IMG/VR virus record: IMGVR_UViG_3300048919_000398
Coordinates: 1-31,971 of that record
Reading direction: 5' to 3' (one strand)
From: a virus
DNA length: 31,971 nucleotides
Below, one piece after another: positions 4,378-29,389 of the stretch. The first letter of the stretch is position 1. Each line of letters opens with the position of its first letter. The notes under the pieces were generated by a model, which worked only from the letters and a program-made list of their open reading frames with translations, was not told the DNA's origin and ran no database searches. A program made the position numbers and the translations under genes.

Positions 4378-5640
4378 TCAACACACCACCGGCAGGTCGC
4401 AAAATCGTGTGGTATATGCCGGTGAAAGCATATCTCGCTTCATTGACCAGGATTTTTGAATACCCTGCCCTGCAAAAAATAAACTGGCCTTACCACTCTG
4501 GTTAAGTCCATCAATCACACGCATCAGGGCTTCGCTGTTCGCCTGCGGCTGATATTCATCAAACAGGTTAAGCTGGGCTACTCCCTGGCTGTAGAAGTCG
4601 CCTAGCATGACGCCTGCTTTCATGTACCTGTGTCCGTCTACCCATACCCTGTCAAGCGCGTCCATGGCAACCCGGATAATATCGCGAGTGTCGTTTGATG
4701 GGGTTAGCAGTTTGCCGGTTGCCTGATTACCGTAAAATACCTCTCCGTCTGCGTAAGGGCTGGTCCGAACAAAAACGGCTATCTGCCTGCAGTACTGCCT
4801 TTCTTTTCTCAGTTTTTCGGCAGCGCGTTCTGCAAAAGCACACACCGCTTGGCGCATATCCATGTAATCAGTGATGCGCGAACCGAACGAGCGAGAGCAG
4901 ACTATTTGCTGTTTAGTGGGTGCGAATTCTTCAAGTTCAAGACAGGACTCGCCGCGCAGTTCCCTCACGGTTCGCTCAAGCACGACGTTGAAATGTTTGC
5001 GGATGATCCAGATACTCTGTTCTGAGAGGTCTTTCGCAGTGGTGATACCCATGGAATTCAACTTCTTGCTTATGCGACGGCCGACACCCCAGACATCCTC
5101 AACCAGCACCAGCGCCATTAGTTTCTTTTGACGCTCAATATTAGACAGGTCAAGTACGCCGCCCGTCTTCGACCACTTTTTTGCAGCATGGTTGGCAAGT
5201 TTAGCCAGCGTTTTAATTGGTGCGATGCCAACACCTACGGTGAGATGCGTATTGCGTTTAATCGTCTCACGCACTTCCCGTCCGAAGTTTTCCAGTACCA
5301 TGCAGTTACGCACGCCGGTCAGGTCCAGAAACGCTTCATCAATCGAATAGACTTCCACGCTGGGTGCCATCTGTTCAAGCGTCGTCATTACCCGGTTACT
5401 CATATCAGCATAAAGCGCATAATTGCTGCTGAAGACGTGAATTTTATGCCGCCTGATTTCGTCTTTTAGCTTAAAGAATGGTGCGCCCATAGGTATGGCC
5501 AGCGCTTTAACTTCAGCGCTGCGGGCAATGACGCAACCGTCATTGTTACTTAAAACCAGCACTGGCTTGCCGCGCAGGTCGGGACGGAACACCGTCTCAC
5601 AGCTGGCATAGAACGAGTTGACATCCACCAGCGCAAACAT
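4378..5640 (-). CDS. umuC: UmuC-type Y-family DNA polymerase, copy 1
   Basis: Catalytic subunit of an SOS error-prone polymerase (Pol V type), closely resembling E. coli UmuC in length (about 420 aa) and sequence. Metal-binding residues are present: Asp6 in LVDVNSFYAS and Asp101-Glu102 in YSIDEAF. The helix-hairpin-helix region (VWGVGRRISKKL) and little-finger region follow, then QLNLF near 358, the beta-clamp motif, and the C-terminal DUF4113 segment (FAGQGI, MLSPAYTTR). I use the ATG at 5640; GTG three bases upstream is less likely. The ATG overlaps the stop of the 79-aa gene by one base (TGATG), so translation is coupled. There is no umuD beside it. The run GIAPIKTLAK departs from GIAQTKTLAK seen in E. 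coli and in copy 3, and the C-terminus (DLPVVC) is also diverged. Confidence 0.95.
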   Translation of the reverse strand: MFALVDVNSFYASCETVFRPDLRGKPVLVLSNNDGCVIARSAEVKALAIPMGAPFFKLKDEIRRHKIHVFSSNYALYADMSNRVMTTLEQMAPSVEVYSIDEAFLDLTGVRNCMVLENFGREVRETIKRNTHLTVGVGIAPIKTLAKLANHAAKKWSKTGGVLDLSNIERQKKLMALVLVEDVWGVGRRISKKLNSMGITTAKDLSEQSIWIIRKHFNVVLERTVRELRGESCLELEEFAPTKQQIVCSRSFGSRITDYMDMRQAVCAFAERAAEKLRKERQYCRQIAVFVRTSPYADGEVFYGNQATGKLLTPSNDTRDIIRVAMDALDRVWVDGHRYMKAGVMLGDFYSQGVAQLNLFDEYQPQANSEALMRVIDGLNQSGKASLFFAGQGIQKSWSMKRDMLSPAYTTRFCDLPVVC

Positions 5641-5879
5641 CACATACAGCCATTTGGGTTGAACACTTGATAGGTACGATCCTCACCTTCAGATCTTGAA
5701 ACATCCCGGAAATCTGATTTGTGCGCTTCTATCCATCTGTTTGCTTCCATGGCCGTGAAATGCCAGTTTAGCTGATGAAGTTCCCTAACAAAATCGAGTG
5801 TGCTGATTGTGTACCGGCCGCGTGTGTCGCGCTTGATGGCCAACCTAAAAGCGTCTTTGATATCATAGTCGCGTGGCAT
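5640..5879 (-). CDS. 79-aa protein coupled to UmuC under LexA control
   Basis: First gene of the SOS operon, in the place where umuD would normally be. It begins MPRDYDIKDAFRLAIKRD, a short helical segment, continues with TLDFVRELHQLNWHFT and EANRWIEAHKSDFRD, and ends FNPNG. It is small, soluble and probably helix-turn-helix-like in outline; I do not recognise the family. I choose the ATG at 5879 because GAGG lies nine bases upstream and because the same start is used by the other two copies; an ATG at 5885 is too close to that site. It does not look like UmuD and has no Ser/Lys dyad. Conserved coupling to umuC suggests a UmuC partner or regulator (inference). Confidence 0.85.
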   Translation of the reverse strand: MPRDYDIKDAFRLAIKRDTRGRYTISTLDFVRELHQLNWHFTAMEANRWIEAHKSDFRDVSRSEGEDRTYQVFNPNGCM

Positions 5880-5903
5880 GGTCATTTACCTCAATGACAA
5901 ATA

Positions 5904-5944
5904 CTGTATGCATAAACAGTAATGTCGACTACCCATTTGATCAA
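5904..5944 (-). promoter_or_regulatory. SOS promoter with LexA box, copy 1
   Basis: CTGTATGCATAAACAG (5904-5919) is a good LexA box. On the minus strand TTGATC (5939-5944), 17 bases, TACTGT (5916-5921) is the same -35/-10 arrangement as I recall for E. coli umuDC, with LexA covering the -10. Confidence 0.9.
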
Positions 5945-9139: not shown

Positions 9140-10402
9140 TTATCTTACTCTTGGAATATCTTTTATTCTCGTTGTGTAACGTGGCGACAGCATTTCACGC
9201 TTCATCTGCCATGAACTGTCGCGCTCTCCCTGCCCTGCAAACCAGATCTTACCTTTACCTGAGCGATTGATACCGTCCAGGGCTGCCATCAGTACATCTG
9301 CATTCGCATGCGGTTGCTGTTCACTGAACATGTCAAACTGCGTCACGCCTGACTGGTAAAAGTCACCTAGCATCACCCCTGCTTTGGCGTACCGAAAACC
9401 ATCACGCCAGATAGTGCTAAGACCGCGAAGAGCTGATTCGATGATGTCCCGCGTATCATTGGTCGGATAATCGATGATGCATGATGCAGTATTCGAATAT
9501 CGCGGCTCATCGCCGTGCCTGCCGGTAGCAACTGACACACTGATATGGCGGCAGCGCGAATTCTGCTCCCTGAGCTTCTCCGCCGCACGTGTGGCATAAA
9601 GCACGATAGCCTGCTGCATGTCTTCCAGTTTTGTGACTCTCTCGCCAAATGACCGCGAATTCAGTATGTGTTGCTTCGGCGGCGGCGCGTCCTCGAGCGC
9701 GATGCAGGACTCGCCATTCAGCTCACGCAAAATACGCTCAACAATAACGTCAAAATTTTTCCGTATCATGCTGATGTTGCTGTCTGCCAGCTGCAGAGCA
9801 GTCGTTATTCCCAGCTGGTTCAGCCGCTTACTGATGCGCTGACCAATTCCCCAGATATCGCTGACATCTGTAAGATGCAGGAGCTTTCGCTGCCGGCTTC
9901 TGTCAGACAAATCCACGACGCCGTTAGTCTGTGTCCACTTCTTGGCCGCGTGATTGGCAAGTTTGGCCAGCGCTTTAGTAGGCGCAAATCCCACACCGAT
10001 TATTAGCCCGGTTTCCTTCCGGATACGCTCACGCATCTGCTGCCCGAATGTCTCGAGCGGAATAATGTTGCTAATCCCGGTAACGTCCAGAAATGACTCA
10101 TCAATGGAGTAAACTTCCTGACCCGCAGCCATCTCACCCAGAATGGCCATCATGCGTGCTGACATGTCGCCGTACAGCTCGTAGTTGGAGCTGAATACGT
10201 GAACACCGTTCTCACGGAAGAAACGTACATTTTTAAACAGCGGCGCAGCCATTTTGATGCCCATTCGCTTTGCCTCTACTGAGCGCGCGATCACGCAGCC
10301 GTCGTTGTTCGATACGACGACAATGGGTTTACCGCGCAGATCGGGCCTGAATACAGTTTCGCAGGAGGCGTAAAAGTTGTTGGCATCGGCCAGCGCAAAC
10401 AT
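9140..10402 (-). CDS. umuC: UmuC-type Y-family DNA polymerase, copy 2 (divergent)
   Basis: A 420-aa UmuC homologue clearly different from copies 1 and 3. Asp6 sits in LADANNFYAS and the second metal motif is YSIDESF (Ala to Ser). The hairpin motif IWGIGQRISKRL, the SRSFGERVT segment and the DUF4113 tail (FAGQGERDSSW, MLSPRYTTR) are present, so the enzyme should be active. The beta-clamp motif is changed to TQFDMF, a weaker-looking form of QLNLF. It begins two bases after the stop of the umuD'-like gene and forms a normal umuD-umuC order. It would synthesise across DNA lesions with two UmuD' subunits. Confidence 0.95.
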   Translation of the reverse strand: MFALADANNFYASCETVFRPDLRGKPIVVVSNNDGCVIARSVEAKRMGIKMAAPLFKNVRFFRENGVHVFSSNYELYGDMSARMMAILGEMAAGQEVYSIDESFLDVTGISNIIPLETFGQQMRERIRKETGLIIGVGFAPTKALAKLANHAAKKWTQTNGVVDLSDRSRQRKLLHLTDVSDIWGIGQRISKRLNQLGITTALQLADSNISMIRKNFDVIVERILRELNGESCIALEDAPPPKQHILNSRSFGERVTKLEDMQQAIVLYATRAAEKLREQNSRCRHISVSVATGRHGDEPRYSNTASCIIDYPTNDTRDIIESALRGLSTIWRDGFRYAKAGVMLGDFYQSGVTQFDMFSEQQPHANADVLMAALDGINRSGKGKIWFAGQGERDSSWQMKREMLSPRYTTRIKDIPRVR

Positions 10403-10404
10403 AG

Positions 10405-10782
10405 TTAATCCCCTGCTGGTCCGTTGAATCCCACCCCGGCTACATCAGTGAGGGCATAGGCAACCACACCCCACACTGGAAGAGCCTGGCTTATATCAAG
10501 CAGCGTAACAGTCTCGTCCTCGTCAAGCGCCTGCAAAGCGGGAACAGGATTGAGAAGCAGCCGCCTCAGCGTAAGCTCCCCATCAAACTCAGCAACGATT
10601 AGCTGACCGTGCGCTGGTGTCAGCGCGCGATCAATGGCCAGCACGGATCCTTTGACAATCCCGGCACCGGGACAATCGCTTTCGCTACGCATTAGATAGG
10701 TTGAATAAGGTGAAAGATAGACCAGATCGCCCAAGTTCAGGCGCGTTTCAGTATAGTTCTGGGCGGGGCTCTGAAATGCCAT
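10405..10782 (-). CDS. umuD: UmuD'-like protein lacking the cleaved N-terminus and the protease dyad
   Basis: 125 residues matching UmuD from the cleavage site on. M1-A2-F3-Q4-S5-P6 lies opposite C24-G25-F26-P27-S28-P29 of E. coli UmuD. Removing Met would leave the UmuD' form directly. No in-frame ATG, GTG or TTG occurs before a TAA 27 bases upstream, and GGAG lies seven bases before this ATG, so the short form is the real product. The catalytic Ser60 position holds Cys37 (or Asp36, depending on a one-residue gap), and Lys97 is Arg73 (LTLRRL). Self-cleavage is thus neither needed nor likely. The fold is kept (VLAIDRALTPAHGQ). Phage P1 HumD is a known precedent for a gene-encoded UmuD' form. 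It should pair with the UmuC just downstream. Confidence 0.9.
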   Translation of the reverse strand: MAFQSPAQNYTETRLNLGDLVYLSPYSTYLMRSESDCPGAGIVKGSVLAIDRALTPAHGQLIVAEFDGELTLRRLLLNPVPALQALDEDETVTLLDISQALPVWGVVAYALTDVAGVGFNGPAGD

Positions 10783-10817
10783 TGCAATGCTCCATTCTAA
10801 CCAGCGTTATTCAACTC

Positions 10818-10856
10818 CTGATATGAGTATAAGACGCTACAGGCGGCAATGCTCAA
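10818..10856 (-). promoter_or_regulatory. Probable promoter with imperfect LexA box for umuD'C
   Basis: On the minus strand CTTATACTCATATCAG (10833 to 10818) differs from CTG-N10-CAG by one half-site base. TATACT or TTATAC within it could be the -10, with TTGAGC (10856 to 10851) 18-19 bases upstream as -35. This box is much weaker than the three perfect ones, so the operon may be partly derepressed. Confidence 0.45.
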
Positions 10857-11056: not shown

Positions 11057-11284
11057 ATGGCTTTAGTTTGTAATGACATTGATAAACTTAAGAAAGAAAT
11101 CGTAGAAAAATATAAGGTTACCAAGAGTGAAAAGCTAACAGGCACTGCATTTCTGTTTGCAGAGCCGGCATTCAATGGTTTCATTGTCAATGTTTTTAAC
11201 AACGGAACAGTGCAGTTTCAAGGCGGCTTCTGTGCGGAGCTCAAACAACAGATGGAAAACTTAGTCGGTTTTATCAACAGCTAA
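11057..11284 (+). CDS. Small 75-aa protein of unknown function
   Basis: Good ribosome site (AAGGA seven bases before the ATG) and a strong terminator just after. The protein starts with a lysine-rich helix (DIDKLKKEIVEKYKVTK), followed by a beta-rich part (GTAFLFAEPAFNGFIVNVFN, NGTVQFQGG) and a short final helix. No cysteine motif, signal or membrane segment is seen; there are two isolated cysteines. I do not recognise it. The clean signals on both sides indicate a real, singly transcribed gene. Confidence 0.65.
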   Translation: MALVCNDIDKLKKEIVEKYKVTKSEKLTGTAFLFAEPAFNGFIVNVFNNGTVQFQGGFCAELKQQMENLVGFINS

Positions 11285-11285
11285 G

Positions 11286-11573
11286 CTAAAGCCGCCCTAG
11301 AGGCGGCTTTTTTTGTATACAGAAAATTTTTTGTTTGTCGAAGCCTTGATGGAAGAACTGATAACGAAGTCCAATGGCACTGACGAGAAGAACCGGATCG
11401 CATGTTATCAGAACCTCAATATCGGACTCGGGATCTTCAGCAATAACCCTGCAATTTATGTTTAGCCTTTCCAGCTCCTGCTGAAGTGACTTGATAAACC
11501 TTTCGGTAAACGCGAAAGGAAAAAACCTTTTGCAGTGGTAATCGTACCAAGGTGGGGCTAGGACTGTGAACAA
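11286..11573 (-). CDS. Possible 95-aa protein, uncertain
   Basis: An open frame from a TTG codon at 11573. The reading is protein-like (RFIKSLQQELERLNINCRV, then DIEVLITCDPVLLVSAIG), with an alternating helix/strand pattern. Its last codons run through the terminator stem, which suggests either read-through into the stem or a shifted end. No good ribosome site precedes the TTG, and no ATG is in frame; an ATG 22 bases upstream lies in another frame, so a frameshifted gene start is possible. No family recognised. Confidence 0.35.
   Translation of the reverse strand: MFTVLAPPWYDYHCKRFFPFAFTERFIKSLQQELERLNINCRVIAEDPESDIEVLITCDPVLLVSAIGLRYQFFHQGFDKQKIFCIQKKPPLGRL
11288..11315. terminator. Rho-independent terminator
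   Basis: AAAGCCGCC (11288-11296) pairs perfectly with GGCGGCTTT (11302-11310) around a five-base loop, followed by more T. It ends the 75-aa gene. The A-run on the left could make it work in both directions. Confidence 0.9.
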
Positions 11574-15965: not shown

Positions 15966-15994
15966 AGTGGCTCGTTCCGGACGAGCCACTTTCA
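15966..15994. terminator. Terminator between ail/lom and the tail operon
   Basis: AGTGGCTCGT (15966-15975) pairs perfectly with ACGAGCCACT (15981-15990), followed by TTTC. It lies between two convergent genes and can stop both, though the T-run is short. Confidence 0.7.
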
Positions 15995-16417
15995 ACTATT
16001 GCCTGGTGCTGCTGGCCAGTCTATTTTTTTCATTACACTTGCATTCAGCCTGTATACTTCAGCTAAATGTTTTTTCCAAGCGTCGAGTTTCTGTTTCTCT
16101 TCTTCATTTAGTCCGTATACATCCTGCACTACCGCCAGCATGCGTATTTCGGTATCGGCTTTTTCCAGCAGCGCATTCTTTATTGCCTGATTATCCTCAA
16201 TAGTGCTGTATTCCTGTTCAGGGATATCCGTCCAGACGGGCATTCCTTCCTTGCCAGACCCACGCTGTTTCCCTTCTGGGGGGGTACCGGTAAACTGTTG
16301 CCAGACTTCATCAGAAACAGGAATAATATCCTCCTGCCAGATACCGTTTCCTCTGTAAGCGGCCTCCTCATCCAGAAAATAAAAGGCATTACTTTTTGCA
16401 CTGAAACCCATCTGCAT
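15992..16417 (-). CDS. Tail fibre assembly protein (Tfa family)
   Basis: 141 residues typical of the Tfa chaperone that helps fold and attach tail fibres: an N-terminal FSAKSNAFYFLDE, GIWQEDIIPVSDEVWQQF, a low-complexity linker (GTPPEGKQRGSGKEG), then helical LEKADTEIRMLAVVQDVYGL and a tryptophan-rich end (DWPAAPG). I choose the ATG at 16417, four bases beyond the stop of the fibre gene; a TTG upstream is less likely. Tfa genes normally follow the fibre gene directly, as here. Last gene of the tail operon. Confidence 0.9.
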   Translation of the reverse strand: MQMGFSAKSNAFYFLDEEAAYRGNGIWQEDIIPVSDEVWQQFTGTPPEGKQRGSGKEGMPVWTDIPEQEYSTIEDNQAIKNALLEKADTEIRMLAVVQDVYGLNEEEKQKLDAWKKHLAEVYRLNASVMKKIDWPAAPGNS

Positions 16418-16419
16418 AA

Positions 16420-17850
16420 TCAATACCCCATAGCCAGCCAGTAGAATGCGGGTTCACCATTGCCGGCGTGCAGGGTAAAGTTTAATTGATTAACATCTGA
16501 TATAAATGAATTGTCTTTACTCATTTTATGTCTGCCACATTGCGTAATTAATACGAGGGAACAGTAGTTGGGAAAAGCTGCCGGGTAATTAATTTCGCCT
16601 TTGCTTGTTTCATGCAGTCCTCCCTGAATAACGAGCTTACTGACCGGATCTTTCCAGATGAAAGGGAAGCCTTTTGTCTTATGAACAAATGATGCTGAAC
16701 GGCCTGCCAGCCATGAATGCAGACTTCCGCCGCTCCATGCTTCTCCAGCAATATCGCCTTTAGTAGTGACTTCTGCTTTCCCAATCTTCAATGGCATGTC
16801 GGTGCTCAGTGAGCCTTCAACGTTTAACGGACCTTTTACTTCCCCGCCGCTTACGGGAATATAGCGGCGATCAAGATCACCCCAGTCAATATGCTGCTGG
16901 TTATTACACAGGACCCAGGCATTCAGGGTCGCATTCCACTCAACTTCATTTTGCTGGCAGCTGCTTAGGGTACCCTTCCTGAGTTCTCTGGCGTCATCGT
17001 TTAAGACTGGACAGGCCGGGAAATCACCGACACGGAGTTTGCATGCCCCTGCATTAGTCGCCTGTGTGCGAAAGAACAGACGCATGCCATCGGTGAGCTT
17101 TGTGACGGGTGGCTGGCAGATCAGATGAAAGTTATCACCCTCGCTTTTAACTTTGCCACTGTTAAGACGTCCCTGCTGCACAGCAGCAATGATGCCATCC
17201 TCAGGAAGAAAAGGCGCATGCTCAGCCATATGTATCGCTGAAGCATCAATGGATATTGCGCCGTTATCTACGGTAATTACCCATGCTGCCGTATAACCGG
17301 GATCCGGTGTCGGGGATATCTGTTCACCTTTTCGGGCGGCCATACCCGCTTTTAATGAGACATGACAGCCACCGGATCTTACCGTGTTTTGTGGTGCGCC
17401 GCTGTTATCTGGTCCGCTGAAAGCGATCGCCGGATCAGCAGCATTGTAATATGGCAGCACAGCGGGCCCCGTGTCGGTGTCGGCATAAGCCACCTGGATG
17501 AGGTAGTTGATGCTGTGACCCTGCATGGCGGGTGCATCAAGCCTGAAAAGGCAGGGTGCCAGACTCAGACCCTGCTTCAGAATAGTATTGATGTTATCGG
17601 CAGCCAGTGACGAGTAAGGCGTGCCATCAATATGCTGCAGGGAATAAATCTGCCCCTCCCCGACCTGAACAGTCATGGAAGCCGGTGCGGAAGGCTTACA
17701 TACCAGACCACATAGCCAGGTACTCTCACCCAGAAAGGCTGACGCCAGTTTCGCCAGCCCTGTCATGGCGAATTTATTGGTATTAAGCAGGTCGGTTTCG
17801 AGCGGAATAGCGCCCGGATAAACAATCTGACGATCCATAAAGTTACCCAT
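16420..17850 (-). CDS. Phage tail fibre protein
   Basis: 476 residues. The N-terminus (IVYPGAIPLETDLLNTNKFA, ALAKLASAFLGE region) is typical of the part of a contractile phage fibre that binds the baseplate. Repetitive beta segments follow, then a receptor-binding tip ending INYPAAFPNYC, and FYWLAMGY at the very end, which resembles tips of Mu/P2-type fibres. The middle portion (GWGDLDRRYIPVSGGEVKGP) is a shaft repeat. It sits directly before tfa. A strong terminator lies immediately upstream (17852-17876) with no good ribosome site, so the expression of this gene may be limited. Start may be the ATG at 17850 or the one at 17838; neither has a clear ribosome site. Confidence 0.85.
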   Translation of the reverse strand: MGNFMDRQIVYPGAIPLETDLLNTNKFAMTGLAKLASAFLGESTWLCGLVCKPSAPASMTVQVGEGQIYSLQHIDGTPYSSLAADNINTILKQGLSLAPCLFRLDAPAMQGHSINYLIQVAYADTDTGPAVLPYYNAADPAIAFSGPDNSGAPQNTVRSGGCHVSLKAGMAARKGEQISPTPDPGYTAAWVITVDNGAISIDASAIHMAEHAPFLPEDGIIAAVQQGRLNSGKVKSEGDNFHLICQPPVTKLTDGMRLFFRTQATNAGACKLRVGDFPACPVLNDDARELRKGTLSSCQQNEVEWNATLNAWVLCNNQQHIDWGDLDRRYIPVSGGEVKGPLNVEGSLSTDMPLKIGKAEVTTKGDIAGEAWSGGSLHSWLAGRSASFVHKTKGFPFIWKDPVSKLVIQGGLHETSKGEINYPAAFPNYCSLVLITQCGRHKMSKDNSFISDVNQLNFTLHAGNGEPAFYWLAMGY

Positions 17851-17851
17851 T

Positions 17852-17876
17852 AAAAAAGGCCACCTTCAGGGTGGCC
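17852..17876 (-). terminator. Rho-independent terminator just before the tail fibre gene
   Basis: Read on the minus strand, GGCCACC (17876-17870) pairs with GGTGGCC (17864-17858), and a run of six T ends at 17852, two bases before the fibre ATG. Confidence 0.85.
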
Positions 17877-17906
17877 ATTACGTGATTGTTAACGCAGGAA
17901 AAGAGA

Positions 17907-18569
17907 TTAATGAATTCTCACCCAGACCAGCGTGCCTTCCGGTTTGACGGCTTCGATAGCAGCATAAATCTGTGCATCCGTAACACTGCCCGTAACCATT
18001 TCCCGGGAGACATATTGGGCGCGCGAAGCACTGCCATAGCCCGCTGTTGAAATTCCGTAGCCTGCCACCTGGGGGATGCCCTGACCGCGCGGACGACTGA
18101 CGACCACAAATGCCTGGTAAGGCAGACAATGTGATCCATATCCACCCGCAGCACCATAACCGATTGCAGGTCCGCCATACGCACCTGTATCTGCAGGGCG
18201 TGACGGCTCGAACATGACTGGTGTGTTCCCGGTCAGCATCTCAATAATGCTGGTAACGGCCTGACGCGTACCCCGCTCGCGAAGCAGATTCGTTTTTATC
18301 TGGATCCGGAAGGGGTCATCAGACATACCTGCACGTCTGGTAAGGCTAGTGCCAAAGAAGTCATAGGCTGCAACGTCCAGCCAGCCATCGCTCGCCGTGG
18401 AGATGCGAGTCTGCTTACGTGCGTAGCGATACAGGGTGTCGCACCAGGATAACGCTGTGGCACAGGCTGAAAGCACACCTTCGAAAATCGGTGTGTCATC
18501 ACTGAACCAGCCTGGCGGCAGCAGCGCATGAAGCCGGTTGAGAAAGTCGTTCCTGTCACCTTTAGCCAT
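17907..18569 (-). CDS. Tail protein I-like baseplate protein
   Basis: 220 residues. The start LLPPGWFSDDTPIFEGVLSA and the following DTLYRYARKQTRISTAS plus DGWLDVAAYDFFGTSLTRR resemble P2 gpI-type baseplate proteins in myophages with a similar J/I order. The middle is unusually rich in Gly and Tyr (GAYGGPAIGYGAAGGYGS), likely a flexible part. It ends TLVWVRIH. It directly follows gp J (18570 start just before), so both belong to one operon and would bridge the baseplate wedge and tail fibre. The family is clear from context and pattern, but I could not align it in full. Confidence 0.75.
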   Translation of the reverse strand: MAKGDRNDFLNRLHALLPPGWFSDDTPIFEGVLSACATALSWCDTLYRYARKQTRISTASDGWLDVAAYDFFGTSLTRRAGMSDDPFRIQIKTNLLRERGTRQAVTSIIEMLTGNTPVMFEPSRPADTGAYGGPAIGYGAAGGYGSHCLPYQAFVVVSRPRGQGIPQVAGYGISTAGYGSASRAQYVSREMVTGSVTDAQIYAAIEAVKPEGTLVWVRIH

Positions 18570-19679
18570 TCAGCTCACCGTAATCTGACCTTTGCGAATA
18601 ACCTGTTTTGACGAGGCCGCAAGGTCAGCTTTACCGTCATTGAGGGTAAGGTATGTCACGTTCGTGACCAGTGGACTGGCCGCATAGGCCACTCTGATGA
18701 TCCGGGTGTAGGCCAGAAGCTGTCCGGGATGAAGGTCTGCAATGTATTGCGATACGGCCGCCTCAATCAGACCGGCCACCTTAGAGTGATCTGCTTCATT
18801 ATCTGTCGTAAATGAAAGTATGACCTTTGCATAGATGACCACCGGCCTGAAAACCCCAAAGGTGATGGTAAATCCGCGCACAGCGTCAATAGCCCTGAAT
18901 GCACGATCAAGCAATTCGCGTGGCGGCATACCGCTGCCATCATCAATAACGGCATAAAAATAGCCCGGCTGTGGTCTACCGTCCCAGGAGACATTCTCGG
19001 TCAGGGTATAGCTGACGCCGCGCTGAACATTGCTGAGCGCAAACGCAATCGCCGCTCTTGTGGCTTTTGATAATGAAGCGATCCACATTCTGAATCGCGC
19101 GCGGAAATCGTCGTCAGATTCAGCGTCCTGACCGCCCACAAACGCCGCTGGGTTAGTCACCTTATCGACATATAACACAGAACCCGTAATAAGGGTGACG
19201 GTACCCGGCTGCGCATTACCTGCAGCGCCTGCGGTATCTGCCCTCACCGGTACCTCCAGGGAAATGACACCCGCTGCGATGATATAGCCCGACTGTCCGG
19301 GCCGGTCGGCAATAACCGTGTAGCTCTGTGTGCCATCGAGGGTGGTTATCTTTGTTCCGACCGGGATAAGGGCCTGGCTCGCGGGGGTAAGACGGGAGAA
19401 CGTCACGTTACCGGCAGCCTGTACAGCAGAGCGACGGAAAAAACCAAAGTCTGCCATCCAGCTGTCCAGGTCTTCGCCGGAGCATGTCGCCGCGCGGGTT
19501 GTCACCAGCAGCTTTACAATCAGCTGCTGGAGCCACATGACCACACCGGCATTGGATTCAGCCAGTGAACGCAGAATGCTCCCGATGGAAAAATCCACCA
19601 GCTTTGCTGCCCGAGCCTGTATCGCTGTGACCTGTTCGCCGACGAGTTCAGTGAAGGATTTGACGTTGAGCGATGACAT
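18570..19679 (-). CDS. Baseplate J-like protein (gp47 family)
   Basis: 369 residues. It shows the usual order for baseplate wedge proteins: N-terminal helix (VDFSIGSILRSLAESNAG), DLDSWMADFGFFRRSAVQAAG, beta-rich PVGTKITTLDGTQSYTV, and the conserved VGGQDAESDDDFRARFRMW, which is a strong signature of gp J. The C-terminal part has two ferredoxin-like folds (SYTLTENVSWDGRPQPGYFY, RGFTITFGVF). The ATG at 19679 is chosen because GAGG lies seven bases upstream; an ATG at 19697 lies inside the preceding gene. It forms the baseplate wedge joining tail tube to fibres. Confidence 0.85.
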   Translation of the reverse strand: MSSLNVKSFTELVGEQVTAIQARAAKLVDFSIGSILRSLAESNAGVVMWLQQLIVKLLVTTRAATCSGEDLDSWMADFGFFRRSAVQAAGNVTFSRLTPASQALIPVGTKITTLDGTQSYTVIADRPGQSGYIIAAGVISLEVPVRADTAGAAGNAQPGTVTLITGSVLYVDKVTNPAAFVGGQDAESDDDFRARFRMWIASLSKATRAAIAFALSNVQRGVSYTLTENVSWDGRPQPGYFYAVIDDGSGMPPRELLDRAFRAIDAVRGFTITFGVFRPVVIYAKVILSFTTDNEADHSKVAGLIEAAVSQYIADLHPGQLLAYTRIIRVAYAASPLVTNVTYLTLNDGKADLAASSKQVIRKGQITVS

Positions 19680-19683
19680 CCGC

Positions 19684-19968
19684 TTACCTCGCGACATCGA
19701 AGTGGAGAGTTTCTGGCGTGCCGGTCAGGGCATCGGTGTAGACAATGGATACGCTGTCAGCCACGGCCGCTGCCGGAAAAGCATACATGTTCATGTACAT
19801 CACGTTGATAGCCATTTCCGGGCCAACCGCGACGGTCAGACGGGATTCCTGCACCGGATCAAGTTCAAGCAGGGTGATGACGCGTCCGCTGGCATCCCTG
19901 ATCTGGTTTGGCTTCACCGGTGATTCCGTCACAACGGGTGGCATTTCATGCACTCTTACCTGCACCAT
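19684..19968 (-). CDS. 94-aa phage protein between sheath and gp J
   Basis: A small, mostly beta protein (MVQVRVHEMPPVV, ASGRVITLLELDP, QESRLTVAVG, AINVMYMNMYAFPAAAVAD). It ends in TLHFDVAR. I do not recognise a family. Its position is downstream of the sheath remnant and upstream of J, 5-10 bases from each neighbour, so it may be a baseplate or tail-completion piece. The stop codon overlaps the ribosome site of gp J, suggesting coupling. Confidence 0.65.
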   Translation of the reverse strand: MVQVRVHEMPPVVTESPVKPNQIRDASGRVITLLELDPVQESRLTVAVGPEMAINVMYMNMYAFPAAAVADSVSIVYTDALTGTPETLHFDVAR

Positions 19969-19978
19969 GATTTGTTCC

Positions 19979-21036
19979 TCAGTTCACTTTTTTACGGCGG
20001 TTGGCTGTCCATGACAGGGTCTGGTTTACCGTCTTCTCGCCCTGCTTGTTACCGGCATCGGTAAGGTGAAACGACACACCCTCATAGCGATACACGCTGA
20101 CGGTGCCGTTTGCCTCGGTAATGGTTTCGGTGATGGTACCGCGGGGCTGATCGATGCCGTTGTAGTAGTTTTCTTCCCACTTAGCCCAGAAGTCGTCGAG
20201 TGTGGCATCCATACGTTCAGCCGTGATGGTGCCATTCCAGCCAACGGGGATCTCCATCCAGTAAGGCCAGTCACCCACAATCAGCTTGAGATGCCAGTCG
20301 TCCACGCCAGAGCTGTTGAGTGCTTCTGACACCGCCTTGCATCCTGCGGAGGCCGGGCCCTGGGCGATGGCATAGACACCTTCAGAGCGCGCAAATGCTG
20401 CCATGACGGGCCAGCACGCTTTATCGGTCACATCGGTAAGGTTGATGACCTGTGAATTCGTGCCACGCAGTGCGTACATGCCCTTACGGGGTGCATCAGT
20501 GCCATCCGTCCCCAGGAGCGTAGCATCCGTGATACCGGTCGCGCCGTCAGTGCCGCCGCTGAGTGTGACCTCGCTGACCGCAGCCTGTGCAGGCGCTTCA
20601 GTTTCAGTGACTTTCGCACGTACCAGCTGGCTGGGGCCACGGATATTCATCTGGCCGTGATTCACCGCCTCCGCCATGGCTCTCCACAGCGCCTCCCCCT
20701 CACCCTGCAGGTTATCGAAGACTTCCGCACTCACGCCCGGCAGACTGAGGGTCAGCTTTTTCGAGTTCACGGCGGTACCGCTGCCGATACCTGCAATTAT
20801 CTGGTTTCCCCGCGTACCGCTGTAGAGTGCGGTCAGCAGCAGGCCTGATTTACTGGCATTTTCACAGAGTCGGCCACTGGCCGCTTTATCCTGACCGTTT
20901 GTCACACGCACACAGTTCAGGTTTGCGGCGCCGAGCTGCAGTGAAATGGGAGCCGCCGTGGCCAGGTCATACTGGCGGTCTTTAGGCGTGCCCAGAAAGA
21001 AGGCCATGTCGTTATCAGAACGGATACAAAAGGCGC
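19979..21036 (-). pseudogene. Tail sheath protein, N-terminus lost by deletion
   Basis: The protein-like frame runs from about residue SAFCIRSDND to the C-terminus, with YDLATAAPISLQLGAANL and NCVRVTNG typical of the sheath handshake domain, and an end LSWTANRRKKV. Sheath proteins normally start about 60-70 residues earlier. Here that part is missing, and the frame runs upstream into the truncated terminase gene (the first in-frame ATG is at 21007). The sheath forms the contractile outer tail; without its N-terminal strand it probably cannot build the mesh. Downstream, no tube or tape-measure gene follows. Confidence 0.75.
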
Positions 21037-21972
21037 TGTCACCATCGCTTCGGTCCAGAGTGCACCGTCGGCATTAAACCGGCGGGGCCGCTGCATATAC
21101 TGTGCTTCGGCTGTGCGCCGGTGTGAAAACAGTGAGGTGCGATGCGATTCATTGTGCTTGTAGGGCCATAGCCAGCCGTCAGGCAGACCATGTTCAATGG
21201 GTATCGCGTGCGAGTTTTCCGGGTACAGTACTGAATACTGTTCGCTGTTATCAATCAGCACCGGCAGGTTCAGGTGGTGCCACTGTTCGCCACTGCCACC
21301 GCGCAGCAGATAGCCACTCAGATCGTGGTAGTGAATGCGCTGCATGATGACCACGATGGGCGTGGTCTCAATGGCCAGACGGGAACGGATGGTTTCGTTG
21401 AAGCGGGTGTTCACCCCGACGCGTATGGTTTCGCTATAGGCGTCGTCAGGTTTGACCGGGTCATCAATAATCAGACTCCCCTGCCAGCCCGACTCCATAT
21501 GCCCGGCACGAAAACCGGTAACCTGCCCTGCAGCGGACGAGGCATACACCCCGCCGCCGTATTCGGTCCACCACATGGCTTTACTGTCGGCGTCATCGCG
21601 TAGCGCCATCGGCCACATGGCCTGAAAGGCAGCAGACTTCACGATGCTGCGTGTGGTAGACGAGTTAAGTAATGCCAGGTTGTGGGAATAGGACAGGTGC
21701 ATGAAACGGGCACGGCGGTTCAGCGCCAGCCCGCGGCCCATCATATTGATGGTGGCCAGTTCCGTCTTGGTGTAGCCCGGAGGCACATTGATGATGAGTC
21801 GCCGGATATCACCATCAATCACCTGATCCAGCGTCCGCTGTATAACCTGATGATGTGGCGCGACAATCATTCGGCTGCCGGTGCGCTGCTTAAAGAAGTA
21901 GCGGGTAAAGTAGAGTCCGTCCTCTTCACACTCTATACGGCGTGCAGCGGTCTTGAAGTCAGCAGTCGTCAT
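20917..21972 (-). pseudogene. Large terminase, C-terminus lost by deletion
   Basis: The ATPase half of a terminase large subunit, which pumps DNA into the head. It shows VPPGYTKTE (about 63-71) in the Walker A place, LIIDDPVKP (about 167-174) as Walker B, ETTPIVVIMQR and HYHDLSGYLL as coupling motifs, and MQRPRRFNADGALWTEAM near 310. After that the family likeness stops: the nuclease domain is absent, and the frame reads on out of phase across the sheath gene until 20917. I use the ATG at 21972; GGAGG sits directly against it, so coupling to the small terminase gene is likely. The family join lies at about 21030-21045. Confidence 0.8.
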
Positions 21973-22513
21973 CCTCCAGCATTTCCCGGCGCGCCTGCCG
22001 GTATTCCTCGCGTGAAAGCAGCGCAACCTCAAGCGGGCCGCCGTCTTTGCCTGTCAGTGATGTCGTGGCCTGTTCACGGAATGCCTGCACGGAAATGTGT
22101 TTACCGAGCAGTTCGAGGTTTCTGACCTTATCCGGCCATTTAATTTTTTTCAGGAGGCCTGCTGCATCACTCGGCATTTCAATTAAATCCATGCCTGACA
22201 GGGTTGTACGCCACACTTTCGGCCAGTCTTTTATTGGCTTTAGAGCACCATTTGCGAGGAGGATATCGAGAACGTCCATTTCGTCTATCTCAGCAAGACG
22301 GCGAAGCACATAATCGGCATTTATTTCTATTCGACTATTGCGTTCATGCTTAAGTTCAGAGATTCTGTTTTGTATGTCAACTTTTGACATATTAATAGAT
22401 GCAGTTCGATTCGCTGACTTTTCTTTATAGCCAGCCCTGATAGCTGCCTGTGTTGCGTTCAAATCAACGAGGTACTCGCGACAAAACATCTCCTGTTTGT
22501 CAGTGAGCGCCAT
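21959..22513 (-). CDS. Terminase small subunit
   Basis: 184 residues. The helix-turn-helix start MALTDKQEMFCREYLVDLN followed by ATQAAIRAGYKEKSANRTA is the clear signature of the Terminase_2 family (DNA-recognition component that brings phage DNA to the large subunit). A helical middle and KGPL-type tail (TSLTGKDGGPLEVALLS) complete it. I choose the ATG at 22513, with GGAG six bases upstream, over a longer frame at 22573. The end overlaps the large terminase start. It appears intact, in contrast to its partner. Confidence 0.9.
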   Translation of the reverse strand: MALTDKQEMFCREYLVDLNATQAAIRAGYKEKSANRTASINMSKVDIQNRISELKHERNSRIEINADYVLRRLAEIDEMDVLDILLANGALKPIKDWPKVWRTTLSGMDLIEMPSDAAGLLKKIKWPDKVRNLELLGKHISVQAFREQATTSLTGKDGGPLEVALLSREEYRQARREMLEDDDC

Positions 22514-22525
22514 GGAGGTCTCCAA

Positions 22526-22999
22526 GTGACAGTGATTAAAACTGATAATGAAATTAAAACAGAGAAAACACAAGGTTCAATTAAATTTCCTGAGCCACCT
22601 GACTCATCTCTATCTTCATCTGAGGCAGCACTGAATAGTAAGAAAGAAAAATTAACTGAAAATAAAAACACTCAAATGGGAGTATCAACTCAGCCTAAGG
22701 CGGCAGTTAGCTCCCTAAAGGTAAAAAACCAAAAGTCAAAACCAACTGAGACTCCAAAAAACCATTATCCTTTGAAAATTTCATTGGTAATTGTTGCAAT
22801 CCTAGGATATGTGATTGCAACAGCATTTGCACCTGACGAAGTTTCATCTTATGCCTTAATGGCTGCAGTATATGCAACCATGAGTGCACTTATAGATCTT
22901 TTTGATTATCCATCTGGAACTGAGAGAAACAGAGTTCAAGGAATACTGAAAATAATCCCTGTCTTTTTAATAATCTACAAAGTATTTTTCTCTAATTAA
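22526..22999 (+). CDS. 157-aa membrane protein, plus-strand insert in the prophage
   Basis: The GTG start at 22526 has a perfect GGAGG seven bases upstream. The first 80 residues are polar, Ser/Lys/Pro-rich and probably disordered. They are followed by three hydrophobic helices at about 83-103, 108-126 and 140-155. It runs against the direction of the prophage genes, is AT-richer than them, and lies in the gap between lysis and packaging genes, a usual site for a moron (cargo) gene. The ribosome site GGAGGTCTCC is shared with the small terminase in the other direction. Function unknown. Confidence 0.6.
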   Translation: MTVIKTDNEIKTEKTQGSIKFPEPPDSSLSSSEAALNSKKEKLTENKNTQMGVSTQPKAAVSSLKVKNQKSKPTETPKNHYPLKISLVIVAILGYVIATAFAPDEVSSYALMAAVYATMSALIDLFDYPSGTERNRVQGILKIIPVFLIIYKVFFSN

Positions 23000-23094
23000 T
23001 TAACTCTTCAAACGATCCTTACAGGGTTCATACTTTGAGACTGGATTAATACCTACAGACTTATTCAAGAGCGAACGCAACGAAGTATCACGCG

Positions 23095-23361
23095 CTATGG
23101 CTTTGACGATTCTCCGTTTATGCGTTTTGCTCGGACCCGTTCAACTTCTCGTATACCCGCTTTGTCGTTATTACATCTCAGAAGTGCAGTTATCAGCTTA
23201 TCATTCAGCAATAAACTGTCTCTCCATGTAAACGGCTCAGGAATAATCGGCACTTCACAGTCAGCCAGCAGGCTTACCGGTATTTGTACTGGCGTAACCG
23301 GAATATATCTTGTCCCGGTGCGCACGCAGCTGGTCAGCAGCAGGACGAGGCACAGGTTCAT
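23095..23361 (-). CDS. Rz1-like outer-membrane spanin lipoprotein
   Basis: 88 residues. A lipoprotein signal (MNLCLVLLLTSC) with the lipid-attached Cys, then a proline-rich stretch (PVTPVQIPVSLLADCEVPIIP) and a helical end. It begins inside the Rz gene in another frame and extends about 170 bases past it, the nested arrangement typical of Rz/Rz1. Together the pair fuse the inner and outer membranes in the last step of lysis. The start I use is the ATG at 23361; the frame to 23493 upstream is only shadow. Confidence 0.85.
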   Translation of the reverse strand: MNLCLVLLLTSCVRTGTRYIPVTPVQIPVSLLADCEVPIIPEPFTWRDSLLLNDKLITALLRCNNDKAGIREVERVRAKRINGESSKP

Positions 23362-23662
23362 TGGCACAGCTATTGCCTTTGACCATTTTACGTATAACCA
23401 CCACACTGCGCTCGCTCTCTGCATTAATGACCTGATTCGCTTCGTGGGTTGCCCGGGCAATGTCGCTGAAGAGGGCTGCTGCCCTGATGACATTAGTCGC
23501 GAGCATCTCTGCTGAGGCTTTTTCCTGCGCCAGCTGCCTGTTCTGCTGAGTCATCACGACCTTAGATAAGGACTGAAGCTTCAGGGCTGCGCTTAGCGCG
23601 ATGACCAGCAAAAACAGACCCGTGATGGTAACGGAACTCCACTTAACCCTGCTAAAGATCAT
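23261..23662 (-). CDS. Rz-like inner-membrane spanin
   Basis: 133 residues with one N-terminal transmembrane helix (VTITGLFLLVIALSAALKL) and a long coiled-coil-like periplasmic part (VVMTQQNRQLAQEKASAEML, HEANQVINAESERS). The start ATG at 23662 overlaps the end of the lysozyme gene, as usual. The nested Rz1 gene begins in its last third. It acts as the inner-membrane half of the spanin complex. Confidence 0.85.
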   Translation of the reverse strand: MIFSRVKWSSVTITGLFLLVIALSAALKLQSLSKVVMTQQNRQLAQEKASAEMLATNVIRAAALFSDIARATHEANQVINAESERSVVVIRKMVKGNSCANEPVPRPAADQLRAHRDKIYSGYASTNTGKPAG

Positions 23663-24155
23663 CACTGGTTTCCGCCAGGCAAAGTGCACGCTCGGTTTGG
23701 CGGCGGTTCATCAGCCCTTTCCACTTCCTGCCGCCCGCAAAAACCCAGCGGCGCAATTCACTGCACGCACCTGTCGTGTCGCCTGCGTTGAGTTTTTTCA
23801 GAAGTGAAGATCGGGAAAAAGCGTCAGTACCGGTGTTATAGACAAAGCTGTAGAGTGCGGCGCGCTGGTAATCGCTAAGAGTAACCGTGACGAGGCTGTT
23901 TACGTCTGACTGAACAGGTTTCAGGTCAGCGCGCAGCAGAACGTCGCATTCCTGGTCGGTATAATTTTTGTTTCTGACAATATCCGGGCCTGTATGACCA
24001 TCACAGACGGTGAGCACACCGGCGACATCCCGATAGGGAACATAACGACGCCCTTCTAAACCATCCGGACCACCCAGCAGCGTCATTGCCAGAGTCAGGG
24101 CACCCGCACCGGCTGCAGCCAGAAGTCTGTTACGCAGCGCAGCGGAAACAACCAT
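23652..24155 (-). CDS. SAR endolysin (GH24 lysozyme)
   Basis: 167 residues. A weakly hydrophobic, Gly/Ala-rich N-terminal segment (LLAAAGAGALTLAMTLLGG) acts as a signal-anchor-release sequence. The GH24 catalytic triad is E34-x8-D43-x5-T49 (EGRRYVPYRDVAGVLT). The rest is typical: TDQECDVLLRADL, SFVYNTGTDAF and RWVFAGGRKWKGLMNRR. The enzyme cuts peptidoglycan once released to the periplasm when the pinholin depolarises the membrane. The ATG is four bases after the holin stop, so translation is coupled. Order holin-lysozyme-Rz-Rz1 matches phage 21. Confidence 0.9.
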   Translation of the reverse strand: MVVSAALRNRLLAAAGAGALTLAMTLLGGPDGLEGRRYVPYRDVAGVLTVCDGHTGPDIVRNKNYTDQECDVLLRADLKPVQSDVNSLVTVTLSDYQRAALYSFVYNTGTDAFSRSSLLKKLNAGDTTGACSELRRWVFAGGRKWKGLMNRRQTERALCLAETSDDL

Positions 24156-24158
24156 GAT

Positions 24159-24380
24159 TCATTGCGGCTTGTTCTGGCATTTACAGCGCAGTGCTCTGAT
24201 TTCTGCCAGTGTCGCCTTGCGCCGGTAATACCCGTTGATGATGCAGGTTACGGTCGCAAGACTGATACCGGCCAGAACGCCGACGGCGCTCCACTCTTCC
24301 GGACTGAAAAAGGTCAGGATGCCGTGGACGATTTCGCCCGCGGAGACGCTGTAAGCGACACCGGTTGTGAGTTTGCTCAT
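24159..24380 (-). CDS. S21-type pinholin
   Basis: 73 residues starting MSKLTTGVAYSVSAGEIVHG. It is similar to phage 21 S21 (KISTGIAYGTSAGS...), with two hydrophobic helices (about 8-27 and 34-54) and a basic tail (YYRRKATLAEIR). It makes small holes that collapse the membrane potential and trigger the SAR lysozyme. Only one Met is present here, unlike S21, whose dual start also gives an antiholin; any antiholin would have to come from another mechanism. No strong ribosome site is visible. Longer frames upstream pass through the terminator and are shadow. Confidence 0.85.
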   Translation of the reverse strand: MSKLTTGVAYSVSAGEIVHGILTFFSPEEWSAVGVLAGISLATVTCIINGYYRRKATLAEIRALRCKCQNKPQ

Positions 24381-24458
24381 CAGGATTTGCCGCGCAGAAC
24401 AGGAAAAAGGTAGCCGGAGCCGGTGGATGAGCAGGATACAGTGACGGCATCCGGTCAT

Positions 24459-24488
24459 AAAAAAAGCCCTGACAAAAATGCCAGGGCT
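24459..24488 (-). terminator. Terminator upstream of the holin (probable tR'-type target of Q)
   Basis: On the minus strand AGCCCTG (24488-24482) pairs with CAGGGCT (24471-24465), with extra pairing inside, followed by seven T ending at 24459. It stands between Q and the holin, exactly where lambdoid phages place tR'. Confidence 0.85.
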
Positions 24489-24530
24489 GAATAGAAATCT
24501 CTCGAGGGTCATTTACCCATCGTTGGAACC

Positions 24531-24558
24531 AATCTAACACAAAAAATGGAAAAGTAAA
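24531..24558 (-). promoter_or_regulatory. Candidate late promoter (pR'-type)
   Basis: On the minus strand TTTACT (24558-24553), 16 bases, TAGATT (24536-24531) with TG one base before gives an extended -10. It lies about 40-70 bases upstream of the terminator, and just downstream of the Q gene. Predicted only from position and weak boxes. Confidence 0.45.
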
Positions 24559-24595
24559 TAGTGAGCTATAACATCGTTACATGAATTATCGCTCG

Positions 24596-25297
24596 CTATT
24601 TAGTAATGCGCGATAACGCCTTCTCTGCCCAGGCCTCTTCCCGGTGCAGCTCGGCGACCAGAAACTCCAGTAGCTGCTTAACGCTTTTGTTCCACGTATC
24701 AAGAGTAAGAGCCTGCGTGACCTGACACACCGCCCTGAACACAACAGCGGAAGGGATACGTTCAAAGCCGCGCCCGGAACACCGCTTACAGGGCTGATAA
24801 ACCGGCACACCCTGAAATCGTGTCATCACACGGTTAACGGATTCCCCTCGCCCTTTGCAGTCCTTGCAGGCAGCCCGCACGACACCTTTTCCGTTACATT
24901 TGCTGCAGCACTTTCCGTTGCACAGGCCTGTGCCGTCACAGGCATGGCATGGCGATTCGGTATCCGGGCTTCGCGCATAATCGAGAAAGGCATAGCCCGC
25001 AATGATCGTGATGACGGCCATGCGCTCTTCTTCGGAAAGTTTTGTGAGCGCAGGATAACGTGAGGATGCCTGCAGGCCTGTCATCGCCAGCAACCGTATG
25101 GCGCGCGCTCTGTCCTGACCGGAGACATTCATTTTTCCAAAAAAGGCAGAGTACCCGAGCGGAGCACGTTTCTGTGTCATGCCCAGCGCAGCCATTACAT
25201 CGCTGCCGGACATGGCATCAGGTGACAGGGATGACTGATGGACGATTGGGGTAACGGAACGCGGGGAATGGTACTTAACAACACTTTCAAGTTTCAT
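24596..25297 (-). CDS. Q-type late antitermination protein (phage 82/21 family)
   Basis: 233 residues. The N-terminal part (MKLESVVKYHSPRSV, DAMSGSDVMAALGM) and the DnaJ-like zinc region are typical of the phage 82-type Q protein. The zinc region runs C117-x2-C120, C126, C130/131-x2-C134, C144-x2-C147 and C170-x2-C173, with GxG turns. The protein binds paused RNA polymerase near the late promoter and lets it read through terminators. Its own targets are right next to it: the candidate promoter at 24531-24558 and terminator at 24459-24488, followed by the lysis genes. A perfect inverted repeat precedes the gene. Confidence 0.9.
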   Translation of the reverse strand: MKLESVVKYHSPRSVTPIVHQSSLSPDAMSGSDVMAALGMTQKRAPLGYSAFFGKMNVSGQDRARAIRLLAMTGLQASSRYPALTKLSEEERMAVITIIAGYAFLDYARSPDTESPCHACDGTGLCNGKCCSKCNGKGVVRAACKDCKGRGESVNRVMTRFQGVPVYQPCKRCSGRGFERIPSAVVFRAVCQVTQALTLDTWNKSVKQLLEFLVAELHREEAWAEKALSRITK

Positions 25298-25309
25298 GGT
25301 AAAGACTCT

Positions 25310-25334
25310 GTGCCGGTAAGAATGTCACCGGCAC
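25310..25334. promoter_or_regulatory. Perfect inverted repeat in the Q leader
   Basis: GTGCCGGT (25310-25317) and ACCGGCAC (25327-25334) with a nine-base spacer, 12 bases before the Q ATG. It has no T-run, so it may be an operator or an RNA hairpin that hides the start of Q. Confidence 0.5.
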
Positions 25335-25351
25335 TATGAGTCGTGTCAGAT

Positions 25352-25636
25352 TCATTTTTCTGAATGCCTGCAGGCACGTTCTGACGAATGAAAAATGAAT
25401 TTCTGCACAAATTTTTCTCTGGGCAGCTGATGCCTGCCCTTCTCCGTCACCCGGCACCACAGTTCAATTAGCGCTTCGCCAGAATGGTGACGGGGGCTGG
25501 CCCCTTTCTTCCACCCGATTAGTGTGGAGGCAACCACATCCAGTTCATCTGCGATGTCCTGAAGGGAGTAACCGGAACGGCTCAGGTCTGTGAGGATCCG
25601 GAACCAGTCGATTTTATGAATATTGATGACGGGCAC
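25352..25636 (-). CDS. Small HTH DNA-binding protein
   Basis: 94 residues from a GTG at 25636; AGGGG lies seven bases before it and just after the stop of the LuxR-type gene. The helix-turn-helix is clear: DWFRILTDLSRSGYSLQDIA, DELDVVASTLIGWKKG. It is followed by LIELWCRVTEK and a basic end. It resembles the small regulators often found next to Q in lambdoid prophages. Longer upstream frames are shadow because they run into the LuxR-type gene. Confidence 0.75.
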   Translation of the reverse strand: MPVINIHKIDWFRILTDLSRSGYSLQDIADELDVVASTLIGWKKGASPRHHSGEALIELWCRVTEKGRHQLPREKFVQKFIFHSSERACRHSEK

Positions 25637-25652
25637 GCGACTTCCCCTGCTG

Positions 25653-29086: not shown

Positions 29087-29325
29087 CACATAGCGCCATT
29101 CGGGTTGAAGACCTGGAAGATGCGATCCTCACCTTCGGATGCTGAGATATCCCGGAAATCTGACTTGTGCGCTTCTATCCACCTGTTCGCTTCCCTGGCG
29201 GTAAACTGCCAGTTCAGCTGCTGGAGTTCGTGAACAAAGTCGAGTGTGCTCACGGTGTAACGTCCGCGCGCGTCCCGCTTAATGGCCAGCCGGAAAGCGT
29301 CTTTGATTTCATAATCGCGTGGCAT
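29086..29325 (-). CDS. 79-aa SOS protein, second intact copy
   Basis: Near-identical to the 5640-5879 protein: MPRDYEIKDAFRLAIKRDAR, TLDFVHELQQLNWQFT, EANRWIEAHKSDFRDISASE, then FNPNG. AAGGG lies eight bases before the ATG at 29325. The stop codon shares its A with the umuC start (TGATG). Retention of both the sequence and the coupling in two operons, and of the same order in the dead copy at 612-851, means selection for joint expression with UmuC. It probably acts on UmuC or on the LexA/RecA response, but this is inference. Confidence 0.85.
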   Translation of the reverse strand: MPRDYEIKDAFRLAIKRDARGRYTVSTLDFVHELQQLNWQFTAREANRWIEAHKSDFRDISASEGEDRIFQVFNPNGAM

Positions 29326-29347
29326 GATCACTGCCCTTTCAGAAATA

Positions 29348-29389
29348 CTGTATATATAAACAGTAACTGCAGTTAGAGGTTTTAAGCAA
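29348..29389 (-). promoter_or_regulatory. SOS promoter with near-perfect LexA box, copy 3
   Basis: CTGTATATATAAACAG (29348-29363) is the closest to the E. coli consensus of the four. TACTGT (29360-29365) acts as -10, with TTGCTT (29384-29389) as a poorer -35, 18 bases apart. Confidence 0.9.

Follow-up and report, generated by a model that had tools for sequence, protein, structure and literature searches.

The umuD'-umuC operon on the minus strand of the viral DNA analysed here (IMG/VR record IMGVR_UViG_3300048919_000398, positions 1 to 31,971; this whole stretch of 31,971 nucleotides is referred to as the window) is probably a naturally pre-processed Pol V operon (UmuD'2C) of phage UmuD' descent, uncoupled from both LexA and UmuD cleavage. 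The features of the two genes are:

10405..10782, minus strand: umuD'-form gene, 125 aa (MAFQSPAQNY...), with a predicted UmuD' fold and without the Ser/Lys dyad
10790..10793, minus strand: GGAG ribosome-binding site, 7 nt 5' of the ATG, as read in the sequence
10807..10809, minus strand: in-frame TAA, 8 codons 5' of the umuD' ATG, with no intervening start codon
10660..10686, minus strand: codons of residues 33-41 (SESDCPGAG), the former Ser60 loop, in which positions 35-37 hold no conserved nucleophile
10564..10566, minus strand: Arg73 codon, at the Lys97 position
9140..10402, minus strand: partner umuC, 420 aa, with a QFDMF clamp-type motif and DUF4113

The 125-aa open reading frame is real, running from the ATG at 10782 to the stop at 10405, and encodes MAFQSPAQNYTETRLNLGDLVYLSPYSTYLMRSESDCPGAGIVKGSVLAIDRALTPAHGQLIVAEFDGELTLRRLLLNPVPALQALDEDETVTLLDISQALPVWGVVAYALTDVAGVGFNGPAGD. 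Its M-A-F-Q-S-P aligns over C24-G25-F-P-S-P of UmuD, as expected from the preliminary description, which had placed the start of the gene at the UmuD cleavage position, and this start is conserved along with the loop and the Arg across 46 unique family proteins. Two further points of that description, the absence of an upstream in-frame start and the presence of a good ribosome site, were also borne out, with no alternative start in the window between the TAA and the ATG and with a site of the GGAG or GGA type in almost every relative. Upstream ATG, GTG and TTG codons considered as possible starts were scattered among few relatives and were not conserved. Direct encoding of UmuD' by this gene is supported at the level of sequence.

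In a phmmer search of the PDB the best match was UmuD' (1i4v, E 2e-16), the chain of which starts at residue 25. The Pfam model Peptidase_S24 was matched at 27 bits, over its cut-off, the NCBIfam HumD model at 87.2 bits against an equivalog cut-off of 120, indicating a relative rather than the same equivalog, and the NCBIfam UmuD model at 75 bits, below its cut-off of 110. The AlphaFold model of the window protein (pLDDT 82) gave 1umu, 1ay9 and 8gmt as its top PDB matches, with E-values to 2e-8. The window protein, at only ~30% identity to E. coli UmuD', is therefore UmuD' in form and fold and, by sequence and predicted fold, a member of the UmuD/UmuD' accessory subunits (S24 fold); the database names 'S24 family peptidase' and 'phage repressor protein' are misleading for this UmuD'-form family. 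Purifying selection was apparent in both genes, with a dN/dS of 0.073 for umuD' (median 0.06-0.07) and 0.049 for umuC. On these comparisons the umuD' reading frame is not a product of chance, both genes are under strong selection, and umuD' appears functional by every sequence test.

The peptidase dyad of UmuD has been lost. The Ser60 loop reads TYLMRSE-SDCPGAGI in the window protein and TYFVKASGDSMIDGGI in E. coli, where Ser60 lies in G-D-S-M, and the window loop is one residue shorter; Asp36 or Cys37 falls at the place of Ser60, while Arg73 aligns with Lys97. As the gap allows more than one register, residues were counted in the 46 unique family proteins. Position 35 was Ser in 39, Thr in 3, Ile in 2 and Cys and Asn in 1 each; position 36 was Asp in 32, Ser in 9, Asn in 3 and Thr and Ala in 1 each; position 37 was Cys in 29, Tyr in 10, Phe in 6 and Ser in 1; and position 73 was Arg in all 46. 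Given this variation at positions 35, 36 and 37, there is no conserved nucleophile whichever residue is aligned to Ser60, and the earlier proposal that Ser60 is replaced by Cys37 or Asp36 and Lys97 by Arg73, with the dyad gone, is supported. The sole invariant Ser of the loop, Ser33, lies over A56/S57 and is Ala in P1 HumD. The protein does not belong to the self-cleaving UmuD peptidases, as it has neither the Ser of G-x-S-M nor Lys97, and neither the ~24-aa N-terminal arm nor the Cys24-Gly25 cut site. Self-processing by other chemistry, with Cys37 as the nucleophile, is extremely improbable: the Cys found at this position in 29 of the 46 proteins gives way to Tyr, Phe or Ser in the remainder, so that it was rejected as an alternative nucleophile for want of conservation, Arg replaces the general-base Lys throughout, and no N-terminal arm is available for cutting.

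The fate of arm and peptidase was followed across 175 unique UmuD-like reading frames, all taken from loci gathered with UmuD and UmuD' queries, so the sample is not random. G-x-S-M (S-M at 60-61) was kept in all 75 arm-bearing proteins, 74 of which also have Lys97, and was lost, together with one residue of loop length, from all 100 UmuD'-form proteins, phage P1 HumD included; the latter set includes seven proteins with GTG starts or with starts 0-3 residues further out, the N-termini of which are armless. Lys97 was lost as well in the Pantoea family, to which the window gene belongs, and in Hafnia and Aeromonas phage proteins. The survey gives a simple rule, that within this sample the arm and the G-x-S-M site vanish together, which suggests that removal of the arm is the sole reason for retaining the peptidase.

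The partner umuC is intact and begins 2 bp after the umuD' stop. It scored 628 bits with the NCBIfam UmuC model against a cut-off of 431 and keeps the Asp6, Tyr11 and Asp101-Glu102 positions (LADANNFYAS, YSIDESFLD), which presumably have the roles assigned to them in E. coli UmuC. The gene pair accordingly has, as in Pol V, an adjacent full-length UmuC with catalytic residues and a DUF4113 tail. An own umuC was adjacent in 38 of the 46 unique family members; of the other eight, two lie at a contig end, two have a complete umuC ~1 kb downstream, one has a umuC cut after codon 76 and three have none. UmuD' and UmuC distances were strongly correlated (Mantel r 0.88, p 0.0005, n=23), and UmuD' and the partner UmuC each formed a single clade, in the case of UmuC in trees from a short search only, which points to coupling and co-evolution of the two proteins.

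Interruption of the Pantoea family's umuC after codon 76 was seen in locus L011 (2001-14628) and also in L022, L025, L042 and L049. The insert in L011, which carries two tyrosine recombinases, crcB, eno, phosphoglycerate mutase, UspA and a transporter, is a fluoride-type island at a rulB-like hotspot (cf. PMC4542609, PMC4458695). Both rulB (PMC4542609) and the umuC of Pantoea ICEPan (PMC4458695) have been reported as island targets, and the family resembles these rulAB/umuDC hotspots in that recombinase-borne islands enter its umuC after codon 76. The likeness differs in its bearing, concerning the fate of the partner umuC and not the working of UmuD'.

Control of the operon was assessed with a single LexA matrix applied to all genes, at least 15 bits being counted as a box. 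The sites concerned are:

10814..10831, minus strand: conserved element TATACT[CG]ATATCAGGAGT, a candidate operator or promoter core and not a LexA box
11305..11324, minus strand: weak LexA-like site, the next best of the window (score 13.3), in a T-run and outside the operon
5902..5921, minus strand: true LexA box of a neighbouring operon (79-aa ORF, then umuC 4378-5643, no umuD)
29346..29365, minus strand: true LexA box of a second such operon (umuC 27824-29089, no umuD)

The best score within 300 bp upstream of umuD' was 1.4, as against 23-30 for the true LexA boxes of the window at 873, 5902 and 29346, and so the operon does not carry the weakest of four LexA boxes, as had been supposed, but has no box at its promoter. 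The site then taken for one was probably that at 11305-11324, which lies >500 bp upstream of umuD', past a divergent 75-aa ORF (11057-11284, plus strand). To be boxless is the rule in the family: LexA boxes were found upstream of 73 of 75 full-length UmuD genes and 54 of 54 solo phage UmuD' genes, and of only 2 of 46 members of the Pantoea/Erwinia/Mixta family, with median scores of 26.8, 25.4 and 3.4, respectively. The umuD'-umuC promoter is not part of the SOS (LexA) regulon on this measure.

Independence from LexA need not mean constitutive expression, since a repressor could act on the conserved upstream element. In TATACT[CG]ATATCAGGAGT a -10-like hexamer, TATACT, overlaps CTSATATCAG. With up to four mismatches allowed, the element was present in 29 of 48 upstream regions of relatives as compared with 2 of 960 shuffles, at two preferred distances before the ATG, 31-32 or 82-85 nt. 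It was unique to the umuD'-umuC operon in the genomes searched, and a wider regulon was rejected, as the pattern occurs at only four places in 61 Pantoea-genus genomes. A non-LexA regulator, such as a plasmid or phage repressor binding this element, might tightly repress the operon and make it an inducible pre-processed Pol V, a possibility that is less likely than not and that differs from the preferred reading in the switch only. The recurrence, spacing and rarity of the element speak for such a regulator, but roughly one family member in three lacks it, the Mixta/P. septica branch in particular, much of it resembles a -10 region, and it has no conserved linked regulator gene.

The window contains further umu copies. 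Two direct repeats of ~1.5 kb (4378-5921 and 27824-29365; 83.7% identical) each comprise a LexA box, a 79-aa ORF (MPRDYE...) and an intact umuC without a umuD, an arrangement also seen on the complete plasmid NZ_CP134734 (L091), and the UmuC of both repeats is nearest to the Pantoea-type UmuC of full-length umuDC operons. The segment 344-892 has a LexA box, a 79-aa-type ORF broken by a TAG in frame, and the remains of a frameshifted umuD (344-676); it is a decayed copy of this operon type in which umuD is still present. The 79-aa ORF, which directly precedes umuC at ~5644-5880 and ~29090-29325, matched no Pfam family and occurs in 1077 plasmid records across Enterobacterales as a conserved SOS-linked small protein. 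Between the two repeats lie myovirus-type prophage genes (15992-25807; baseplate J-like, tail fibre, terminase, lysozyme and Rz-like), whose identity to a block carried by 613-kb Pantoea agglomerans plasmids reaches 94%.

Among plasmids, close relatives of the umuD' gene were found in 31 records, every one from Pantoea. Others occurred in Pantoea, Mixta and Erwinia oleae genomes and in a single genome record that bears the name Enterobacter cancerogenus, as well as on IMG/VR contigs, which measure 12-119 kb and are often close to 90 kb. A family member was present in 19 of 61 Pantoea-genus genomes. The wider-family draw of 198 genomes contained one at comparable score (G001, Pantoea), the next matches falling to 1e-24, and the operon occurred in 0 of 5426 E. 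coli genomes. In a UmuD tree built without trait columns, all UmuD'-form proteins fell on one side of a single branch (support 93/93), and the plasmid family was nested beside a phage-type gene on viral contig L057 (100/97). This gene carries a LexA box but is not next to a umuC, is 45% identical and is the nearest tree row outside the plasmid family. The simplest history suggested by the tree is that a phage UmuD' gene was joined to a umuC and that the LexA box was lost.

This distribution bears on whether the gene is merely an ordinary umuDC in decay, a pseudogene in the making that has lost its 5' end and its control. In favour, the window itself contains the frameshifted umuD remnant and the two umuC operons without umuD, and the family's umuC is interrupted in some plasmids, but the start and loop are common to 46 unique proteins, dN/dS is ~0.07 and descent is from phage UmuD' genes of the same form. 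These observations therefore argue for an old, maintained state rather than a fresh truncation, which is ruled out by dN/dS, tree and distribution; decay in general is very unlikely.

The nearest known systems are the HumD-type phage genes. P1 HumD, N15 gp26, phiKO2 gp23 and the HK639 UmuD-like gene likewise start at M-G/A-F, have lost G-x-S-M, have a loop one residue shorter and a ~10-aa C-terminal extension, and the window gene stands on their side of the UmuD tree. The start at the cleavage position and the shared ancestry with phage UmuD' are thus in common with this type, whereas a HumD-type gene stands alone, has a LexA box close to its start and retains Lys97, and the window gene has its own adjacent umuC and Arg at 97 and is without a LexA box. 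P1 HumD keeps Lys97 together with a Ser alignable to Ser60 (A-D-S-H-H), so that loss of the dyad may be incomplete there. The contrast drawn earlier with HumD, that loss of both catalytic residues sets the window gene apart, stands as regards Lys97, which P1-type genes keep, and the alignable Ser of HumD itself, but not as regards G-x-S-M and the loop residue, which have gone there too. HumD, the closest studied relative, complements UmuD' according to a feature note in the P1 record, and has reportedly been found to do so in published work (McLenigan 1999). The UmuD-like genes of Hafnia and Aeromonas phages (L014, L017) and L057 share both the UmuD' form and Arg at Lys97, but are solo, and most have a strong LexA box (in L057 25 bits, 37 nt before the ATG).

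In common with E. coli Pol V, the window operon has the UmuD' fold, the umuD-umuC order and a full UmuC with catalytic residues, but it is without the arm, the dyad and the LexA box, and UmuD' is made directly. The product, a pre-cleaved accessory subunit with a polymerase, is that of the engineered umuD'C, mucA'B and rumA'B constructs; the window form differs in being natural, old and selected, and in having also lost the dyad, which the constructs never required. The Acinetobacter UmuDAb/truncated umuC locus is likewise outside LexA control but, as described (PMC7273328, PMC11332147), involves an enlarged UmuD with a repressor role and no UmuD'-form start. No published description of a umuD'C operon of the window type was found in the open-access literature, and the combination of a natural UmuD', a dedicated UmuC, full dyad loss and no LexA box appears new, while akin to HumD and UmuD'C.

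Under the preferred reading, umuD' would produce constitutive UmuD', with no arm to cut and no peptidase to cut it with, which would dimerise and bind UmuC, the product of the adjoining gene, forming UmuD'2C straight away. Two controls on Pol V, LexA repression and RecA*-stimulated self-cleavage of UmuD, are absent by construction, and given the UmuD'-form start without a cut site and the boxless promoter, these two safety catches look to have been removed in evolution. In E. coli, UmuC with uncleaved UmuD is membrane-held and unstable, and UmuD' releases and stabilises it (PMC4552617). E. coli UmuD'2C is in turn nearly inactive until a RecA subunit derived from RecA*, and ATP, have joined it (PMC4374754, PMC4001326), so the third control, activation by a RecA subunit and ATP from the RecA* filament, probably remains for catalysis by the window UmuD'C, by analogy. 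The suggestion that activity would be set by transcription alone was for this reason too strong.

The UmuD' might otherwise act mainly as a decoy or modulator, by forming heterodimers with full-length host UmuD and so altering its cleavage, ClpXP turnover or the supply of UmuC. The E. coli UmuD/UmuD' heterodimer is the favoured form and directs UmuD' to ClpXP. Other UmuD genes, of full length, are present in each of the 13 hosts searched, which would allow mixed dimers to form, and the two umuC operons of the window without their own umuD make subunit sharing conceivable. Identity to host UmuD is only ~30-35%, however, and the gene is tied to, and co-evolving with, one dedicated and itself strongly selected umuC, of which a pure decoy would have no need; this role is accordingly unlikely. 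An unusual accumulation of umuDC-type operons on plasmids and prophages was observed in the Pantoea group (G001, G006, G008, G009 and others), with up to 7-11 UmuD-like matches each, some of these being LexA.

A pre-processed Pol V would be a translesion polymerase able to act once ssDNA and RecA* exist, before any SOS induction, which would suit a plasmid or phage-plasmid newly in the cell, or one whose PsiB dampens SOS. On the conjugative plasmid NZ_CP143413 (L229), a full-length umuDC and an SRAP gene (order umuC-umuD-SRAP) occupy one strand, and umuD'-umuC, a methyltransferase, ArdA, ParB, PsiB and PsiA are encoded on the opposite strand. The layout is partly shared by L004, L005 and L008, which agree with it in the methyltransferase/ArdA genes that they have. 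According to a survey of leading regions, 90.3% of the umu genes located there lack the orientation for early T-strand transcription, and their role is unclear (PMC11541004); as a lead, umuD'C, which reads in the direction of psiB and ardA, would belong to the minority. Other copies are on large non-mobilizable plasmids or near terminase and integrase genes, and that of the window neighbours prophage genes rather than lying in any recognisable leading region. The RecA* that the polymerase needs would moreover be lowered by PsiB, which tells against the reading. When the 150 nt upstream were folded as DNA in seven members, no consistent hairpin of an ssDNA (Frpo-like) promoter was seen (z -2.0 to +0.5), so early expression at entry is without direct support. 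That a family of Erwiniaceae plasmid and phage-plasmid operons encodes a Pol V evolutionarily freed of LexA and of RecA-driven UmuD processing, and employed in gap filling or translesion synthesis as DNA enters a recipient in which SOS is uninduced or kept down by PsiB, is put forward as a doubtful if conceivable extension of the preferred reading.

If true, a Pol V active at entry would provide plasmid umu genes with a role. Pol V is the standard multi-lock mutagenic enzyme, restrained by LexA, UmuD cleavage, proteolysis with membrane sequestration, and RecA* activation, and at least two of these locks appear to be missing in a conserved natural operon, which allows tests of which Pol V controls matter and of what plasmids and phages may gain from a pre-activated polymerase.
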